Source: Deltaproteobacteria bacterium (GTDB taxonomy: Bacteria > DRYD01). From it: 17,419 nucleotides of DNA. The notes under the pieces were generated by a model. It was not told where the DNA came from, did not search any database, and was given only the letters and a program-made list of their open reading frames with translations. The stretch is taken from the NCBI GenBank assembly GCA_028276365.1, contig JAPYWL010000024.1, positions 1-17,419 on the forward strand, given 5' to 3'. Within the stretch, counting starts at the first letter, position 1. Each line of letters opens with the position of its first letter. This document shows positions 1 to 10,017 of the stretch, one piece after another. The position numbers were made by a program, and so were the translations under genes.

Positions 1-25
1 ATTGGAGCAGATATATAGCACACAG

Positions 26-2561
26 GTTTAGCTTACCCATAGGGGAATTGAAAGTGTAAATTTCATAAAATATTTATCGGGAGCTTTAAAATGTTTAGCT
101 TACCCATAGGGGAATTGAAAGTACTAATTCTTCTTTTTTTCGTTTTGGATTGTTTGTGTTTAGCTTACCCATAGGGGAATTGAAAGAAGAATAATTTATT
201 AGGACAATTACATAAAAGAGCAGTTTAGCTTACCCATAGGGGAATTGAAAGTAATATCTCGTGGAGTTCGCCATAATTCCCAATAAAACGTTTAGCTTAC
301 CCATAGGGGAATTGAAAGTTTCATTAACTGCAGTTCTAATGAATATATCTTGTGCGTTTAGCTTACCCATAGGGGAATTGAAAGTTAGGAGGTGGTTAGT
401 ATGGAGGGGAGCCATCACTAAGTTTAGCTTACCCATAGGGGAATTGAAAGTTTTTGAAAATTTTAATTTTATTTCAATTTCTATATTTTGTTTAGCTTAC
501 CCATAGGGGAATTGAAAGACTTCATATACTACTCCATCTTTATATCCATCTACTCCGTTTAGCTTACCCATAGGGGAATTGAAAGAAGATAAATTCCTAT
601 ACTATAACACTTCATTAATGAGTTTAGCTTACCCATAGGGGAATTGAAAGAAAGTAGTGTTAGGATTGTAAAGAATAGTGCCGTGTTGTTTAGCTTACCC
701 ATAGGGGAATTGAAAGGTTTCCTTAGATAAACCTATTAATGATAAAAGAATAGAGTTTAGCTTACCCATAGGGGAATTGAAAGTAGGCTTCTAAATCTAT
801 TATAGTATTTCTTAAATCAGTTTAGCTTACCCATAGGGGAATTGAAAGATAAAATCAAGGGAAAGAAAGAAAGAAGGAATAAGAGAGTTTAGCTTACCCA
901 TAGGGGAATTGAAAGAGGCAAATATATGGACGAGTATAAGCTAATTCCTCAACCCGTTTAGCTTACCCATAGGGGAATTGAAAGAGAATAAACCCTTCAA
1001 AGTCCATCATATAAACCCCGTTTAGCTTACCCATAGGGGAATTGAAAGTATTTATTTCAAAATCTACGTATGTAAATTCATCACTTGTTTAGCTTACCCA
1101 TAGGGGAATTGAAAGCAAGTAGAGAGATGGTTAGCTCCTAAAGAAGAAAAAGAGTTTAGCTTACCCATAGGGGAATTGAAAGCACCTCCTTTTTCTTTTA
1201 GGGGGTATCCCTTTCTCTTGTTTAGCTTACCCATAGGGGAATTGAAAGTTTTAATAAACTTCTTAACTTATCCATTCTAAACACGTTTAGCTTACCCATA
1301 GGGGAATTGAAAGTTTTTAGTTCTGCTAAATCCCATTCTAATTCTTCATGTTTAGCTTACCCATAGGGGAATTGAAAGTTCAAAAGAATAGATATAGCTT
1401 TACTATCTCCATTCTGTTTAGCTTACCCATAGGGGAATTGAAAGAGTTATATACTTTTTCTTCATTATCTTTACTTTTTTGTTTAGCTTACCCATAGGGG
1501 AATTGAAAGTTGCAAATGAGAAAATAAAAGCGCTATTTAATAAAACGTTTAGCTTACCCATAGGGGAATTGAAAGAACTTATCTACCCTCATATTAACCA
1601 CCTCCTTATGTAGTTTAGCTTACCCATAGGGGAATTGAAAGAATATATTCTTTCTAATATAGCAAAAATTTGCTCTAGTTTAGCTTACCCATAGGGGAAT
1701 TGAAAGAAAATTGAAAAAATTTATTATAGATGCTTTTATTAGTTTAGCTTACCCATAGGGGAATTGAAAGAATGATAGGGAGTGTTGAAGATGAAAAGAA
1801 AAATTTTGTTTAGCTTACCCATAGGGGAATTGAAAGAATTTTTCAATTAGTTTTTTCCAAAGGTTTTTCATTTGTTTAGCTTACCCATAGGGGAATTGAA
1901 AGCTACTCCTCTGCTGGAAAAGTAGGTTGCCCCCTCTGGTTTAGCTTACCCATAGGGGAATTGAAAGCTATTCCACTTCTTGTGGAAAAGTAGGTTTCTT
2001 CTGTGTTTAGCTTACCCATAGGGGAATTGAAAGCCAAAATTATGAACAAAATGTAAATAAATTGTTATATGTTTAGCTTACCCATAGGGGAATTGAAAGT
2101 GTAAAAATACTTGCAACAGAGAAAACCTACTTTTCGTTTAGCTTACCCATAGGGGAATTGAAAGCCAAAATTATGAACAAAATGTAAATAAATTGTTATA
2201 TGTTTAGCTTACCCATAGGGGAATTGAAAGCTTCTTTTCTTTCCCAAAATTCCCTCATACTAACACGTTTAGCTTACCCATAGGGGAATTGAAAGTAGCT
2301 TTGTAGTAATTGATAAATCTTAGCTTCATCAGGGTTTAGCTTACCCATAGGGGAATTGAAAGCAAAAGTATCTCTGTAGTGTAAATCAATTCTAAACTTG
2401 TTTAGCTTACCAATAGGGGAATTGAAAGTAAAAAAATCAAATTAATAATTTAGCATTAGCATTATTGTTTAGCTTACCCGTAGGGGAATTGAAAGTCTTT
2501 AAATTATTAAGATTATCTATATAAATAATATCGTTTACCTTACTTATAGGGGAATTGAAAG
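26..2561 (+). CRISPR. CRISPR array, 39 repeats of 29 nt with 38 full spacers
   Basis: The 29-nt repeat starts GTTTAGCTTACC and ends GGGGAATTGAAAG. It recurs with starts at 26, 93, 158, 223, 290 and so on to 2533, at intervals of 64-69 nt, giving spacers of 35-40 nt. Positions 1-25 are the end of a further spacer cut by the window. Repeats 1-36 look identical. Repeat 37 (2400) and repeat 38 (2467) carry one change each, and repeat 39 (2533) carries three. Decay at the right end marks the trailer, so transcription should run left to right, with the leader and cas genes beyond the left edge. The conserved ATTGAAAG end would give the usual 8-nt crRNA 5' handle and is typical of type I-B and type III systems; the type cannot be fixed without cas genes. 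The spacers after repeats 31 and 33 are identical. Identity of the early repeats suggests an active or recently active array. Confidence 0.99.
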
Positions 2562-2680
2562 GAAGGGGATTGAAAGGAAGGGGATTGAAAGAAAGGGAAT
2601 TTAAAGAAGGAATTGAAAGAAGAAGAAATGAAAAGTTAAACCTACCTATAAAGGAATTGAAGTAGGGAATTGAAGTTTTC
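2562..2680 (+). repeat. Decayed CRISPR trailer: tandem 3' half-repeats
   Basis: Directly after the last recognisable repeat come tandem units of 13-16 nt matching the 3' half of the CRISPR repeat. These are GAAGGGGATTGAAAG twice (2562-2576, 2577-2591), then AAAGGGAATTTAAAG (2592-2606), AAGGAATTGAAAG (2607-2619) and a more degenerate unit (2620-2635). A fuller but eroded repeat follows at 2635-2662, containing CCTACCTATA and GGAATTGAAG. Another half unit, TAGGGAATTGAAG, lies at 2663-2675. The last part overlaps the 3' end of ftsW. I infer slippage or recombination within the terminal repeat after it ceased to be maintained. Confidence 0.85.
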
Positions 2681-3809
2681 TTTTGATATCCAAGGACTCT
2701 TCTTTCTCAGGTTCATTTATTATTTTATTTATCAATGCTACTGCTAACCAATTAATTATCATAGAAGTTCCACCATAACTTATAAACGGTAGAGTTATAC
2801 CTGTTGCCGGTAATAACGATAACGTTACCCCCATATTAACTGCTGCTTGAAAAAATATCATAAAACTTAATGAAAATAAAACTAATTTTCTAAATGTATT
2901 AGTTTGTCTTAAAGAATTATGTATCCCTATTGAAAATAAAGCAAAAAATAAAAATAGTATAAATAAATTACCTATTAATCCTAATTCCTCTCCTATTATA
3001 GAGTATATGAAGTCTGTATGTTTTTCAGGTAAGTAATATTGTTTTTGTAAACTATTACCAAAACCTACTCCTAAGATTCCTCCCTTAGCATGTGCTATTA
3101 AACTCTGAATAATATTATATCCATAACCTAATGGATCTTTAAATGGATCAATAAAAGCTAAAAATCTCTTTATTCTATAACTCTTGGTTAATACTAAGAA
3201 TATAAATGCTATAAAAGAGAAGATAAATAAAGGTAACATGTGCCATATAGGGGTTCCCCCTACAAACATCGTAACTAAAAATAATAAAGCTACTATTGTA
3301 CTATTCCCTAAATCAGGTTCTATTTCTATTAAAAATGCTAATATTAGCATTATTACAAATGGTGCCACAAAACCTTTTTTGAAATCTTTTATTATATCTA
3401 TTTTATTCTCTATAAAATATGCAGTATATAAGATTATAACTATTTTAGATAACTCAGAAGGTTGAAAAGTTATTATCCCTAAATTAATCCATCCTCTTGC
3501 TCCATTTACTTCTACCCCTAATGGAGTAAATACTAATATCAATAATGCTATATTTATTAAAACTAACCAAGGAACACTTTTTTTTATAAAATCTACCGTT
3601 ATCTTTTTATTAAGCGTTATAATAAAGTAAATAAACAATCCTATTATAAAAGCTATTATCTGTTTTATAACAAAATTCATATTAAAAGTAGCAGAATATA
3701 CCATTAATATTCCAAACAACGATAAAATTAGGGATATGTAAAAAATAGCTTTTGAACTTATGCTATAGTTTGATATATTTTTTTTATTTTCACTTCTTGA
3801 TTTACTCAT
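2646..3809 (-). CDS. ftsW: SEDS-family peptidoglycan glycosyltransferase FtsW
   Basis: Membrane glycan polymerase of the SEDS family, which makes septal peptidoglycan from lipid II together with a class B PBP. The 387 residues contain about ten hydrophobic segments. They carry the FtsW-type landmarks NGARGW (102-107), FQPSE (115-119), EPDLGN (164-169), DPFKDPLGYGYN (221-232), PEKHTDF (261-267, with the likely catalytic Asp266) and a LLPATGITLPF...YGGTS block (332-349). The NGARGW and FQPSE signatures favour FtsW/SpoVE over RodA. The start codon lies 5 nt after the stop of the upstream peptidase gene and has no clear Shine-Dalgarno, which suggests a shared transcript and translational coupling. 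Oddity: the last ten codons (KLQFPTSIPL) and the TAG stop lie in the decayed CRISPR trailer, so the C-terminus appears to have been replaced or extended by repeat-derived sequence. That tail is cytoplasmic and follows the conserved core, so activity is probably intact. Confidence 0.92.
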   Translation of the reverse strand: MSKSRSENKKNISNYSISSKAIFYISLILSLFGILMVYSATFNMNFVIKQIIAFIIGLFIYFIITLNKKITVDFIKKSVPWLVLINIALLILVFTPLGVEVNGARGWINLGIITFQPSELSKIVIILYTAYFIENKIDIIKDFKKGFVAPFVIMLILAFLIEIEPDLGNSTIVALLFLVTMFVGGTPIWHMLPLFIFSFIAFIFLVLTKSYRIKRFLAFIDPFKDPLGYGYNIIQSLIAHAKGGILGVGFGNSLQKQYYLPEKHTDFIYSIIGEELGLIGNLFILFLFFALFSIGIHNSLRQTNTFRKLVLFSLSFMIFFQAAVNMGVTLSLLPATGITLPFISYGGTSMIINWLAVALINKIINEPEKEESLDIKRKLQFPTSIPL

Positions 3810-3814
3810 ATATA

Positions 3815-5347
3815 CTAATTAAAAAGCAAGGAATATTTTTCTTCAAAATAATTATATAAATATGTAGGATCTAAATTTTTGGATGTTATCTTATTTATTA
3901 GTTCTTTAGTTGTATATGTCATACCATGCTGATGAATGTTTTCTTTTAAGTATTGTATTATTAAATTAAATTGTCCATTTTGGATTAATTCTTTTAGATT
4001 TAATTGAGTTTTTGAATGATAATAAATTTGAGCAGCTACTATATTCCCAAGGGTGTAAGTAGGGAAATATCCAAATAAGCTTTCTGCCCAATGAATATCT
4101 TGTAAAAATCCATCTGAATAATTATCTAATTTGTATCCAAAATAATTATAAAATAAATCGTTCCATAAATCAGGGATCTCTTTTACCTTTAAGTTTTCAT
4201 TAAATATTTTTCTTTCTATATTAAATCTTAGGATTATATGAAGATTATAGGTTAATTCATCTGATTCTACTCTAATAGGTTGTAAATCTATTTTATTTGC
4301 TGCTTTGACAAAATCAACAACCTTATATTTATTAAAAATTTCAAAATAATTAACTAAGTAAGGATAAAAATAGTTCCAGAATTCAATAGATCTTCCAATA
4401 ATGTTTTCCCAGAATCTTGATTGCGATTCATGCAAACTTAAAGATATAGCTGCTCCTCTTGGTTGTCCGTAGTATTCTTCTGGTAAGTTATATTCATAAA
4501 TTGCGTGTCCTAATTCATGTAAGGTCCCAAAAATAGAATTACCTATATCATTTGGTATATACTTAGTCGTTATTCTTATGTCTTTAGGGGATATTGAAGT
4601 GGCAAATGGATGAGAAGTAGGATCTAATCTTGAGAAATCTTGACTAAAACCAATCTTTTTTACCAAAAAATTACAAAATTCTTCTTGCTTTTTTATATCA
4701 AATTCTCCTTTTAATATATCCTCTACTTTTTGGGATTTATCATAATACTTTTTAATTAATTCTTTGGTTTTAATGAGCAAATGATTAAATATATTTTCTA
4801 TTTCAGATGGAGTAAAGCTATATTCATAGCTTTCTAATAAAGCTTGATAAGGTTCTTCTTTGTATCCTAATAAATTTATAAATTCTTTATTAATTTCAAT
4901 AATTTTTTGTAAATAATTAAGGTACTCTTTTAAGGTATTATCTTGTAGGGATTTGGGTTTATTTTTTTTAGCTTGTTCCCATCTGTTTATAGATATTGGA
5001 ACTAAATTTGATAGTTTAGCCATTAATTTAGGGGGAATCTTTGAGGATCTTTCATATTCATATTTCCACCATTTTACATTAACCCATTCATCACTGTATT
5101 TCTCATAATCATTTTCATTTAGTAAATTTACTAATTTAGCATATTTTTTAGAGGTTTTCAATTTATGAATATATTCTGTTAAGATTGCTATTTGTTTTCC
5201 TCGGTATTCACTTGCTGCTTTAGGCATTGTTACTCTATCATCCCAATATAGTAAGCTCAATATCCCATTTAAATATGCAAGATATTCATTGTATTTCTTT
5301 ACTTTTTGATAAACTTTTTCTTTACTTAATTCCTTTTTTATTAGCAT
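3815..5347 (-). CDS. M32-family metallocarboxypeptidase
   Basis: Zinc carboxypeptidase of the M32 family (Taq/Pfu carboxypeptidase type), which removes C-terminal residues from peptides in the cytoplasm. It has no signal peptide. At 510 aa it matches the family's usual ~500 residues. Landmarks in order: DPTSHPF (242-248), the HELGH zinc and catalytic motif (277-281, Glu278 as base), HESQSRFWE (306-314) supplying the next metal ligand region, IRVESDELTYNLH (358-370), and HWAESLFGYFPTYTLG (419-434). All are in the family order. The start ATG has a purine-rich AAAGGGG about 6 nt upstream on the minus strand, and AT-rich promoter-like sequence (ATAATATAAT) lies slightly further up. It is followed after 5 nt by ftsW, probably in one operon. 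The pairing looks positional rather than functional. All active-site motifs are present, so the gene looks intact. Confidence 0.95.
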   Translation of the reverse strand: MLIKKELSKEKVYQKVKKYNEYLAYLNGILSLLYWDDRVTMPKAASEYRGKQIAILTEYIHKLKTSKKYAKLVNLLNENDYEKYSDEWVNVKWWKYEYERSSKIPPKLMAKLSNLVPISINRWEQAKKNKPKSLQDNTLKEYLNYLQKIIEINKEFINLLGYKEEPYQALLESYEYSFTPSEIENIFNHLLIKTKELIKKYYDKSQKVEDILKGEFDIKKQEEFCNFLVKKIGFSQDFSRLDPTSHPFATSISPKDIRITTKYIPNDIGNSIFGTLHELGHAIYEYNLPEEYYGQPRGAAISLSLHESQSRFWENIIGRSIEFWNYFYPYLVNYFEIFNKYKVVDFVKAANKIDLQPIRVESDELTYNLHIILRFNIERKIFNENLKVKEIPDLWNDLFYNYFGYKLDNYSDGFLQDIHWAESLFGYFPTYTLGNIVAAQIYYHSKTQLNLKELIQNGQFNLIIQYLKENIHQHGMTYTTKELINKITSKNLDPTYLYNYFEEKYSLLFN

Positions 5348-5662: not shown

Positions 5663-6701
5663 TTAGGGTTTATATATACAATAGGGGTCGCTGTTATGAT
5701 ATGATCCTGTTAAAGCGTAACTTCTGCTTCTACTACCTCCGCAGATCTCTCGGTATTCACAAACTCCGCATTTCCCCTTTATTTTACTATTAATCTCTAA
5801 TATTGTTTAATAATTTAGAGTTTTGGTATATATCTTTTAGGGATTGTTTTCTAATGTTATAAGCACTTAGGTTAATAAATCCGCTTGGTTGGACCTTATC
5901 TATATGATTAATAAATATCATCCCTTTTCCATCATTTACTCCAAAAGGTGCTCTTCTTATTAAACTTTTTTTATTATCTATTAAATCATTTGGAGTTAAT
6001 TTTTCTTTTATTACTTTTTGTAATAATTCGTATTCGTTTATATTTAATTCTTTTGCTTTTCTTTTTTATAAGGGGTTAATTAGTTTTAGGTTATTAGCTT
6101 TAGCTCTTCCTACTTGTATTAATAAGAAAATAGCCCATAGTTTAGGGTTTATTTTTTTGATTAATTCTACTATATTAGGGATATCTTGATAATTGAATTC
6201 TGTTAAGGTAGTGTGGATTTGAGTTTCTAAGTTATATTTATCAGCATAATTTAGGATTTCAAAGGTTTTATTAAACGTTCCTTTTATTCCTCTAAAATTA
6301 TCATGTATTTCTTCGTTGCTTCCATCTAAACTTAGTGCTATTCTATTTAATCCGGATTCTTTAAGTTTTTTTATTACTTCTTCAGTTATTAATGGAGTAG
6401 CTGATGGTGTTAATGCTACTTTGATATCATTTTTCGAAGCGTAATAAACTATATCAAAAATATCTTCTCTTTTGATTGGATCCCCACCAGTTATTATAAA
6501 AATGGGATACGGTTTTTCAAATTCTTTTATCATTTCAATTAAATTAAAGACTTCAGAAGTTTTAAGTTCAAAGGGATTTCTGTTTGTATTAGCTTCTGCA
6601 CGACAATGAAGACAAACTAAATCACAGGCCCTTGTAATTTCATAAATAACTGTAAAAGGCTTCTTATTGAAATCCATACTTATTTTATTATGCTTACCCA
6701 T
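5663..6701 (-). pseudogene. Broken radical SAM/SPASM gene (TIGR04053-like)
   Basis: Remnant of a radical SAM enzyme with a C-terminal SPASM domain, closest by memory to the TIGR04053 and NirJ/AhbD-like group; substrate unknown. The 5' part (6066-6701) carries the CDLVCLHC [4Fe-4S]/SAM cluster (Cys26, 30, 33), TGGDP (71-75), TPSATPL and SLDG. An in-frame TAA at 6066-6068 ends it. The same frame then continues with KRKAKELNINEYE and PFGVNDGKGMIFINH...QPSGF. Near 5790 a one-nucleotide shift (frame ending NNIRD, then INSKIKGK) leads to the SPASM cysteines, CGVCEYREICGGSRSR, and ...DPYC, with the final stop at 5663-5665. TAA cannot encode Sec or Pyl, so decay is the simplest reading. The stretch between NEYE and PFGVNDG also looks shorter than in relatives. 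The first ATG lies inside an orphan CRISPR repeat with no ribosome binding site. The internal Met9 (MDFNKKPF) resembles the usual family start. Confidence 0.85.
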
Positions 6702-6715
6702 AAAGGAATTGAAAG
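6687..6715 (+). repeat. Orphan degenerate CRISPR repeat
   Basis: This 29-nt element contains GCTTACCCATA followed by AAGGAATTGAAAG. Compared with the array repeat, only the first few bases and two of the four central Gs differ. It is in the same orientation as the array, about 4.1 kb from its end, and has no partner at normal spacer distance. On the minus strand it supplies the ATG and the codons MGKHN of the radical SAM remnant. The array repeat read in the same frame would encode MGKLN. Confidence 0.85.
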
Positions 6716-7022
6716 TTTTTGGGTTAGATTTTAGTAATTTATTTTATTTATTTTATTTATTTTATAAAAAGATTTTGGGGATTTTTTTATTTTTTTAATT
6801 TTTTTTATTTTTGTCAATCGGTTTTTGGGCATTAAAAAATTGACAAAAGTCAATATTGGATTTTTGTTTTTTGTTTATAAATTATGTTTTTTGCTTGGTA
6901 ATACTGAATCTGTTGATCCACCCAGAAAAATTAGCTTAGTTCGCATTAACAGTTTTTTTTATTATGAAGAATTTTTTATTTTTTACCTAATTATTATATT
7001 AGATTAAAATATACATCCTCCT
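6716..7022. other. AT-rich debris between two orphan CRISPR repeats
   Basis: No intact gene is visible. The left part is T-rich low complexity. An inverted repeat pairs TTTTGTCAAT (6809-6818) with ATTGACAAAA (6839-6848), and the latter is part of a small palindrome, TTGACAAAAGTCAA (6840-6853). A minus-strand 23-codon frame (6875-6946) reads MRTKLIFLGG...SVLPSKKHNL. This faintly resembles the N-terminus of RNase Z-like metallo-beta-lactamase-fold proteins. The plus-strand 60-codon frame at 6825-7007 runs through low-complexity sequence, has no ribosome binding site and is not called. Confidence 0.5.
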
Positions 7023-7066
7023 GTTTAGCTTACCCCTAAGGGAATTAAAAGAAGGGGAATTGAAAG
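7023..7066 (+). repeat. Second orphan CRISPR repeat plus half-repeat
   Basis: Positions 7023-7051 begin GTTTAGCTTACCCCTA and end GGGAATTAAAAG, a 29-nt copy of the array repeat with few changes. It is followed immediately by AAGGGGAATTGAAAG (7052-7066), which repeats the 3' half. The main array also ends with a repeat followed by half-repeats of about 15 nt, so this site looks like a second trailer remnant. Its orientation is the same as the array. Confidence 0.85.
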
Positions 7067-7094: not shown

Positions 7095-7127
7095 AAATAA
7101 AAAAGAGGGGAAAAAGATTTCCCCCTC
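7095..7127 (-). terminator. Intrinsic terminator for the lipoprotein gene
   Basis: On the minus strand GAGGGGGAAA, a short loop and TTTTCCCCTC form a stem of about 10 bp with one G-U pair, followed by TTTTTTATTTTC. It lies about 40-70 nt past the stop of the lipoprotein gene. It is the only GC-rich hairpin with a U-tract that I see in this AT-rich window. Confidence 0.75.
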
Positions 7128-7164
7128 CCTCTTATAACCTTTATTTCTGTTTTTTTATACTATT

Positions 7165-8496
7165 TTATGGATTTTGAATTGGAAGAACTGTAAAGCTTGA
7201 TGAAGAAGAATTTAATTTTCCGAATACATATAAGTAATTATTATAAAATACATTACCCCACCAAATACCTGCTGTTGAATTAGCAGTTAAATATGATCCA
7301 GTATTATTTGAAGTATCAAATTTTATAAAAGCTGCGTTGTTATTAGTATCTATGCTACTTAGGTATATAATATTACCGGTCCCTGGATAATATACATCAT
7401 TTATAGCTATTTTTATATCATTGTTGCTATTATCTTTAAACGTGAAATAGCTTGCGGTATTATTATTTAAGTCAAATACAGCTAAAACGCTTTGACCTGT
7501 TGTGGCTAAATTAGCTCCTAAATAGACTTTATTATTTAAAATAACAGCATCTAAAGGAGCTGCAATAAATAAATCACCACTTGGGGGATTTATTGTTTTT
7601 AAGCTACCAGATACTACACTTCCATTGCCTGGATTAACTTTAAATAACATTAAATTAATTGTAGGACCATTTTGCTGCTCTCCAACAATAATTAAGTTTG
7701 TTCCATCTGTTAATATATCAGTAGCAAATTCTTGAGTATTAGTATCATTGTCAACATCTATTTCAGTATAACCACTACTACCAAAAGTATTTACAGTAGA
7801 TCCATCATTAGTATTTAATTTAAAAATTATAACTTTGCCTTGATTATTATATCCTGCAACATAAAGTACATTATTAGTGCTATCTACTAATAATCTTCCA
7901 GTTGTTTCATAATTTCCCCTATCTAAAACAACTACACCTTGGATAGGAAAACCATTGCCGAAACTATTAACAAAACTTAAATTATTTTTATCTATTTTAG
8001 CAACGAATATATCAGTATCAGTACTATTATTGTATCCCCCCATAGCATATATATTATTAGTATCTTGATCTATATAAAGATTACCAAATTGTCCATTAGT
8101 ACCGCTTGTAAAATCAATTGTTAAAGAACCATTAAAGGTATTAGGTGGATTAAATTTAAATAGATATACGTTGGGGTTAGCACCAGCACCTGATGGAGAA
8201 TCATTTCCTAAAATAAAAAGAGAATTACCATTAGAGTCTAATAATCCATTAGCAAGTTCTGAAGCAGCACCATTATTAACATTATTTGCTTGGGAAACAG
8301 GAGTACTAGCTGTTCCACTATTAAGAGATAAGGTTATTACATTTCCACTTCCACTACCTCCGGAACCTCCGCTACCTCCAATACCTCCAATTATATTGTT
8401 ACCACTAGAGCTATTACAAGAAGTTATAAAAACAGTTATTATAGATAAGATTGTAATTAAGATTAAAAGATTTAAAAAATTAGTTAACTTTTTCAT
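7165..8496 (-). CDS. Exported lipoprotein with beta-propeller-like repeats
   Basis: The N-terminus is a lipoprotein signal: basic MKK, a hydrophobic stretch to residue 23, and the lipobox ITSC with Cys27 as the lipidated residue. A flexible Gly/Ser tether follows (residues 33-51, GGIGGSGGSGGSGSG). The rest, about 390 aa, is built of repeated segments in which hydrophobic strands such as NIYAMGGYNNSTD, VLYVAGYNNQG and NLIIVGEQQNG precede FVAKID, IIFKLN and LMLFKVN. Some segments end in FGNG (179-182) or FGSSG (238-242). This pattern fits a beta-propeller of the delta-60/DUF5122 kind, a structural surface fold with no fixed activity. Asn, Thr, Ser and Gly are abundant, as in secreted proteins. 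The ribosome binding site AAGGAGGTG is strong (8502-8510 on the complementary strand). The gene appears monocistronic with its own terminator. Function unknown. Confidence 0.85.
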   Translation of the reverse strand: MKKLTNFLNLLILITILSIITVFITSCNSSSGNNIIGGIGGSGGSGGSGSGNVITLSLNSGTASTPVSQANNVNNGAASELANGLLDSNGNSLFILGNDSPSGAGANPNVYLFKFNPPNTFNGSLTIDFTSGTNGQFGNLYIDQDTNNIYAMGGYNNSTDTDIFVAKIDKNNLSFVNSFGNGFPIQGVVVLDRGNYETTGRLLVDSTNNVLYVAGYNNQGKVIIFKLNTNDGSTVNTFGSSGYTEIDVDNDTNTQEFATDILTDGTNLIIVGEQQNGPTINLMLFKVNPGNGSVVSGSLKTINPPSGDLFIAAPLDAVILNNKVYLGANLATTGQSVLAVFDLNNNTASYFTFKDNSNNDIKIAINDVYYPGTGNIIYLSSIDTNNNAAFIKFDTSNNTGSYLTANSTAGIWWGNVFYNNYLYVFGKLNSSSSSFTVLPIQNP

Positions 8497-9811: not shown

Positions 9812-9876
9812 TTATCTTTTTTCAAAGGTTTTTATTTTATTCGAAAAATTTTATTTCTTTCAAAAGAAAAAAATTA

Positions 9877-10017
9877 TTTTTTAGTAGGATTTAATTTTTT
9901 AAAAGGATTTAGTTTTTTAAAGTAATTTAGTCTTTTTAAAAGATTTTGATTTGTTAAAAAGGTTTTGTTTTTTTAGAAAGATTTTATTTTCCTCAAAGGA
10001 TTTATTTTTTTTAAAAC
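9877..10017 (+). repeat. Iteron-like tandem array, 18-19 nt period
   Basis: Eight consecutive units follow an approximate consensus TTTTTTAAAAGGATTTAG. They start at 9877, 9895, 9913, 9931, 9950, 9968, 9987 and 10005, so the spacing is 18 or 19 nt. The first three are the best conserved, and 9816-9876 shows further, more degenerate units. Stop codons occur in all frames I read, so this is not a coding repeat. The regular spacing may mean an iteron or protein-binding array, or a decaying minisatellite. Confidence 0.7.

Follow-up and report, generated by a model that had tools for sequence, protein, structure and literature searches.

The oldest end of a CRISPR array encodes the C-terminus and stop codon of FtsW in a hot-spring bacterium whose genome carries dispersed leader-repeat units at gene ends

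In a hot-spring bacterium, the degenerate terminal units of a CRISPR array supply the last codons and the stop codon of the cell-division gene ftsW, and the array lies with its oldest end against the gene. The same genome holds scattered copies of the CRISPR leader (about 105 nt) that are followed by one repeat only, here called leader-repeat units, and these are biased both in their position and in their orientation relative to neighbouring genes. On balance, we think that the 3' ends of genes are landing sites for leader-repeat units, and that the ftsW array developed from one such unit.

The DNA that was analysed, referred to as the window, is a whole contig (C72) of 17,419 nt from the 1.59-Mb metagenome-assembled genome of this bacterium (G000, 124 contigs). 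It was compared with five other genomes of the family, namely the sister species (G001) and G002-G005, and with one genome of the order; the named relatives include Candidatus Calescibacterium. Gene calls are open reading frames backed by sister orthologues, and they come from one incomplete assembly and one close relative. The array and its surroundings are laid out as follows.

1 to 25, plus strand: 3' end of a CRISPR leader (ATTGGAGCAGATATATAGCACACAG), matching the last 25 nt of the C59 array leader; the contig breaks inside the leader
26 to 2561, plus strand: CRISPR array of 39 repeats (GTTTAGCTTACCCATAGGGGAATTGAAAG) and 38 spacers of 35-40 nt
2562 to 2634, plus strand: run of 3' half repeats without spacers, two GAAGGGGATTGAAAG, then AAAGGGAATTTAAAG, AAGGAATTGAAAG and AAGAAGAAATGAAAA, read directly
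2635 to 2662, plus strand: degenerate terminal full repeat (GTTAAACCTACCTATAAAGGAATTGAAG), the antisense of which encodes TSIPL and the stop of FtsW
2663 to 2675, plus strand: half repeat (TAGGGAATTGAAG), the antisense of which encodes LQFP of FtsW
2646 to 3809, minus strand: ftsW, 387 aa, with residues 379-387 and the stop within CRISPR-derived DNA
3815 to 5347, minus strand: gene preceding ftsW, as also in the sister; M32-carboxypeptidase-like by our own reading, while NCBIfam gave no match

The array is assigned to type I-B by its regular identical repeats, its unique spacers (one duplicated) and a leader that it has in common with a cas-linked array; the homologous full leader adjoins cas1 of the type I-B locus on C84. 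The subtype I-B cas genes of the genome are cas1b, cas2, cas6, cas3 and cas5b, together with a partial cas4 match below its cut-off and a cas7/Csh2 fragment. At one mismatch or fewer, GGAATTGAAG occurs 44 times in the window, compared to 1.6 expected by chance, and nearly all of these are array repeats, among which only the last three on the ftsW side (2400, 2467, 2533) are variant. Since the leader lies at 1-25, far from ftsW, the gene faces the oldest end of the array, a polarity that contradicts the suggestion of the first-pass annotation that the array grew against an essential gene. No spacer is common to the C72, C84 and C59 arrays, and none has a match in the rest of the window at six mismatches or fewer. 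One 37-nt spacer (CCAAAATTATGAACAAAATGTAAATAAATTGTTATAT) occurs twice, at 2034-2070 and 2165-2201, two units apart, and three spacers (1903-2135) have AAAAGTAGGTT or its reverse complement AACCTACTTTT in common, perhaps reflecting related targets. As the contig starts inside the leader, which is a repeated sequence, the array could have been joined wrongly to ftsW during assembly; such an artefact is very improbable, however, because the junction is unique decayed sequence crossed by an open reading frame, and more than 20 loci on other contigs show this arrangement too.

FtsW has TIGR02614 as its top family and the sole one close to its own cut-off (E=1.4e-100, 336.9 bits, which is 0.6 bit short of the curated 337.5). 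On the minus strand the gene ends in GAT ATC AAA AGA AAA CTT CAA TTC CCT ACT TCA ATT CCT TTA TAG, of which the part encoding LQFPTSIPL and the stop is exactly 2646-2675, entirely inside repeat-derived DNA (2635-2662 and 2663-2675). The first-pass annotation was right to attribute the tail and the stop to the trailer end of an array, but it counted ten codons; the K378 codon (2676-2678) falls outside the repeat, so nine codons and the stop are repeat-derived. Likewise, the degenerate half repeats that it named as the source are represented by the unit at 2663-2675, but the unit at 2635-2662 is a nearly full degenerate repeat. In local alignment, the repeat-like 50-nt stretch at the ftsW end scores 15 against the genome's own repeat and 19 against that of the sister, and the best scores among 3000 Markov-matched random stretches were 13 and 17, respectively. 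With none of the 3000 scoring as high, chance resemblance is excluded at the level tested; the similarity is also contiguous with the array, and relatives are without this tail. That an ordinary FtsW tail just happens to look like the repeat is therefore the least credible explanation of all those considered, even though FtsW tails vary freely in the family.

Array-less relatives with the same KLQFPTSIPL ending would have spoken against a CRISPR origin, and such relatives were not found: the sister and the four other family genomes have other tails, and in none of them is there a repeat-coded FtsW tail or an array directly behind ftsW. Up to the stop codon, the sister tail reads ..NLKTKIISNL (longer form ..INEPLNTQNLNLKTKIISNL), while those of the other family genomes read ..KIVFQKSV, ..KIIIPENI and ..KLIISKT (longer forms ..NKPDEVKKVDVHNKIVFQKSV, ..NKPNETKKVYLQEKIIIPENI and ..NKPTEVKKIDIQGKLIISKT). 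FtsW is 85% identical to its sister counterpart over residues 5-379, and past the NEP/NKP motif it has 20 residues compared to 16-18 in relatives. Since only some 5-9 residues of a variable tail differ and the conserved part is complete, no functional part is visibly lost, and judging from its sequence the protein appears undamaged, with a tail only slightly longer than those of relatives. That ftsW lost its own 3' end, as had been proposed, is too strong a statement for a few unconserved residues in a tail of ordinary length. Gene order behind ftsW also differs. The sister has gltP, a symporter gene, at this place, and in G000 gltP sits on C48 beside another solitary leader-repeat unit, so a rearrangement is likely there. 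This speaks against the array having simply been inserted between these two genes as they are ordered in the sister; in G002-G005, however, the gene that follows ftsW is again a different one, and the sister order need not be ancestral.

The terminal repeat at ftsW is of an ancestral type. The present repeat of this genome is CTTACCCATAGGGGAATTGAAA, that of the sister GTTTTAGCCTACCTATAAGGAATTGAAAC and that of the second genus TCTACCTATAAGGGATTGAAA; the terminal repeat carries CCTACCTATAA, the state common to the sister and the family relatives, and it aligns better with the sister repeat than with that of its own genome. The simplest reading is that an older type of repeat has been preserved here as a fossil. 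In Escherichia and Salmonella arrays, too, the terminal repeat is almost always degenerate (PMC2886076).

A genome-wide search found 112 copies of the repeat, several of them distant from any array, and reading around these matches revealed that most array-distant repeats have the CRISPR leader before them. When leader and repeat were searched for together, 24 places were identified in G000, with leaders 78-98% identical, and in the relatives there was nothing comparable except one leader adjoining cas1 in the sister. Four of the 24 are starts or presumed starts of arrays (C84, C59, C68 and C71), the contigs of C68 and C71 ending shortly past the first repeat. The other 20 are scattered and carry one repeat only, some with one extra half repeat, and their left ends are sharp at (CA)GAAAAA[TC]TA.

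These solitary units are far from randomly placed. In 18 of the 20, the repeat end faces a convergent gene, and in 15 the stop of this gene lies within 30 bp; the distances from stop to repeat end in the 18 convergent cases are -27, -22, -16, 1, 2, 4, 8, 14, 16, 16, 16, 17, 22, 24, 29, 43, 53 and 113 bp. Of random insertion points, 56% have a convergent neighbour and 17.3% a stop no more than 30 bp away, which gives p about 2e-8 for the observed 15 of 20 under a null that leaves out selection against damage to the downstream gene. Such selection could keep units near the upstream stop, but would hardly fix their orientation, and between co-directional gene pairs the units all have one orientation (15:0). 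The paralogous duplicates C83a and C16a are not independent of each other. C16 and C83 each hold a gene-unit-gene segment; the two segments are paralogues, and the extra half repeat, present in only one of them, was gained or lost in one copy.

Array trailers follow the same rule with respect to gene stops. In G000, the C66 and C70 trailers directly abut the ilvE and infA stops, and both genes keep native-like tails. In the sister, the last repeat on C22 is 0 bp from the rapZ stop, and those on C16, C4 and C26 are some 70-110 bp from a stop, past half-repeat-like runs. In G002, the last repeat on C19 is about 2 bp from an aspartase/fumarase stop and those on C14 and C5 about 8 bp from a stop, with C3 as an exception. 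Spacerless runs of GGAATTGAAAG-like half repeats occur at array trailers in two species, for example at C70:14271-14414. Since units and trailers lie at stops as a rule, landing explains ftsW better than an accident confined to that gene.

For nine units (C51, C5b, C87, C106, C6, C54a, C61, C54b and C83b), both flanking genes are together in the sister without the element, with a tight gap in seven cases and a looser one at C51 and C5b; the sister repeat itself is restricted to four arrays and a few decayed copies. Either this lineage gained the units or the sister lost them, and gain is the simpler reading. Comparison with sister orthologues further shows that at least five genes have repeat-recoded tails, as leader and one-repeat copies sit tight at gene ends throughout the genome. 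In addition to ftsW, these are thrS (..LFDLLKNL in the sister, ..LFDLLNKLELSIPLWVS here, that is, LLKNL replaced by LLNKLELSIPLWVS), an ftcD-like gene (..FGFKKIIEFQVE and ..FKFKKTLFQFPYG, KKIIEFQVE replaced by KKTLFQFPYG), a gene that is metallophosphoesterase-like by our own reading, with no NCBIfam match (..NYLNSLINIFS and ..NYPNLFYFQFP), and perR (..CKECKNQKITNLNN and ..CKECFQFS, the latter from a half repeat), all given up to the stop. The antisense of the repeat reads LSIPLWVS or FQFPYG, each followed by a stop, or the open frame FNSPMGKLN, so that in two of three frames a gene entering the repeat very soon meets a stop.

It is also conceivable that the array was already beside ftsW, and that the gene lost its own stop by mutation or a small deletion and now uses the first stop in the array. 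This requires no insertion at a gene end and would be free of cost, as two antisense frames contain a stop; with many trailers and units lying 0-24 bp past a native stop, including those behind the native-like IlvE and InfA, a short slippage into the repeat would be easy. Loss of the stop could even act together with landing at ftsW. As the whole explanation we consider it possible but doubtful, because it leaves some 20 units of one orientation close to stops, and the empty sites of the sister, unexplained.

A further explanation is that the solitary units are former arrays whose repeats recombined and thereby removed all spacers, the ftsW array being one that did not collapse. Leaders at degraded arrays and one-repeat CRISPR loci have been reported in Escherichia and Salmonella (PMC2886076), and the half repeats at solitary units look like those at array trailers. 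However, seven units have the same variant repeat and half repeat, and a 10-nt internal leader deletion is common to several units, as expected if a derived unit was copied. Moreover, about 20 arrays would have had to be born and emptied, and the position rule would still lack an explanation; we regard collapse as unlikely.

According to the reading that we prefer, the leader-repeat unit would have been copied around the genome, moving as such and landing at gene 3' ends in one orientation, with its repeat end directed towards the stop codon of a convergent gene or reaching into it. Where it landed a few codons ahead of the stop, the antisense of the repeat would provide the last codons and a new stop, giving, depending on the frame, the tails LSIPLWVS or FQFPYG, or QFP/SIPL from the half repeat in FtsW. 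The unit at ftsW would be old, its founding repeat of the older type having decayed and remained at the ftsW stop, while additions of spacers on the leader side built the array of 39 repeats. Among the relatives examined, none has a single leader-repeat unit next to ftsW as an intermediate. Furthermore, most solitary units differ from the four arrays with longer leaders, which lie behind genes of their own direction, and arrays and solitary units may therefore have separate origins. The wider proposal that leader and one repeat form a mobile unit, which an integrase, either dedicated or CRISPR-borne, inserts at gene 3' ends in fixed orientation and which seeds arrays and recodes C-termini and stops, is put forward tentatively, with Cas1-Cas2 of the type I-B locus on C84 as one possible candidate for the integrase. 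The 20 copies and the sharp left end are MITE-like features. Target-site duplication across the units is not significant by permutation (p 0.28), with C48 as the single clear case (~20 bp); there, the unit at about 575-775 beside gltP is flanked by a near-perfect 20-bp direct duplication (TTTATTTATAAAGAAATAC / TTTATTTAAAAGAAATAC). A terminal inverted repeat candidate, AATTNNCCTAT, was seen near both unit ends (9 of 11, by eye only), and is at best weak.

Several known systems resemble parts of this picture. In E. coli K-12, too, the trailer of CRISPR1 points towards the 3' end of its convergent neighbour iap, and convergent placement alone is thus not special; there, the repeat remains outside the gene (iap stop at 1619, first clear repeat at 1702, locus positions), whereas here repeats encode protein tails and stops. 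Methanocaldococcus jannaschii reportedly carries a single type of leader at many places in its genome, with a number of repeats behind it that ranges from one to many (Bult et al. 1996), and these multi-copy long-repeat elements would be similar to the units described here in having dispersed leader copies with repeats; we know of no description of a lock to convergent stops or of recoded tails for them. Off-target integration by Cas1-Cas2 makes neo-CRISPR loci at new genomic places, but is not known to carry a leader copy, whereas the leader is part of the unit here. Rickettsia palindromic elements and MITE-like repeats are short dispersed elements that contribute codons to genes; the units differ from them in their location at gene ends, in supplying stops, and in lacking clear inverted repeats or target duplications. 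Viral solitary repeat units consist of a single CRISPR-like repeat outside an array (PMC8616872), and share the lone repeat with the present units, which are chromosomal and have a leader. Identity with them was rejected, as the units lie between orthologous chromosomal genes and a scan of viral contigs for repeat and leader gave no match. Dispersed single leader-repeat units were not found described in the openly licensed literature, which is weak evidence of novelty.

The birth of new CRISPR arrays at new chromosomal places is poorly understood, and some 20 leader and one-repeat units, nine of them with an element-free counterpart in the sister, make the question testable. Arrays are also not neutral to their neighbours, as their ends can become protein ends, including those of an essential tRNA synthetase and a division protein.

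The window contains one such solitary unit of its own, with a lone repeat nearby.

6687 to 6715, plus strand: lone degenerate repeat; the antisense strand has the first ATG of a truncated radical-SAM open reading frame
6923 to 7066, plus strand: solitary leader with one repeat (7023-7051) and a half repeat (7052-7066); the convergent gene at 7165-8496 lies opposite, with its 3' end towards the unit
7097 to 7135, minus strand: intrinsic-terminator-like site between this unit and the gene at 7165-8496

The radical-SAM gene (6066-6701) is TIGR04053-like and about half length, with its first ATG inside the lone CRISPR repeat. Elsewhere in the window, the intergenic stretch at 9859-10014 consists of imperfect T-rich tandem units of 18-19 nt.
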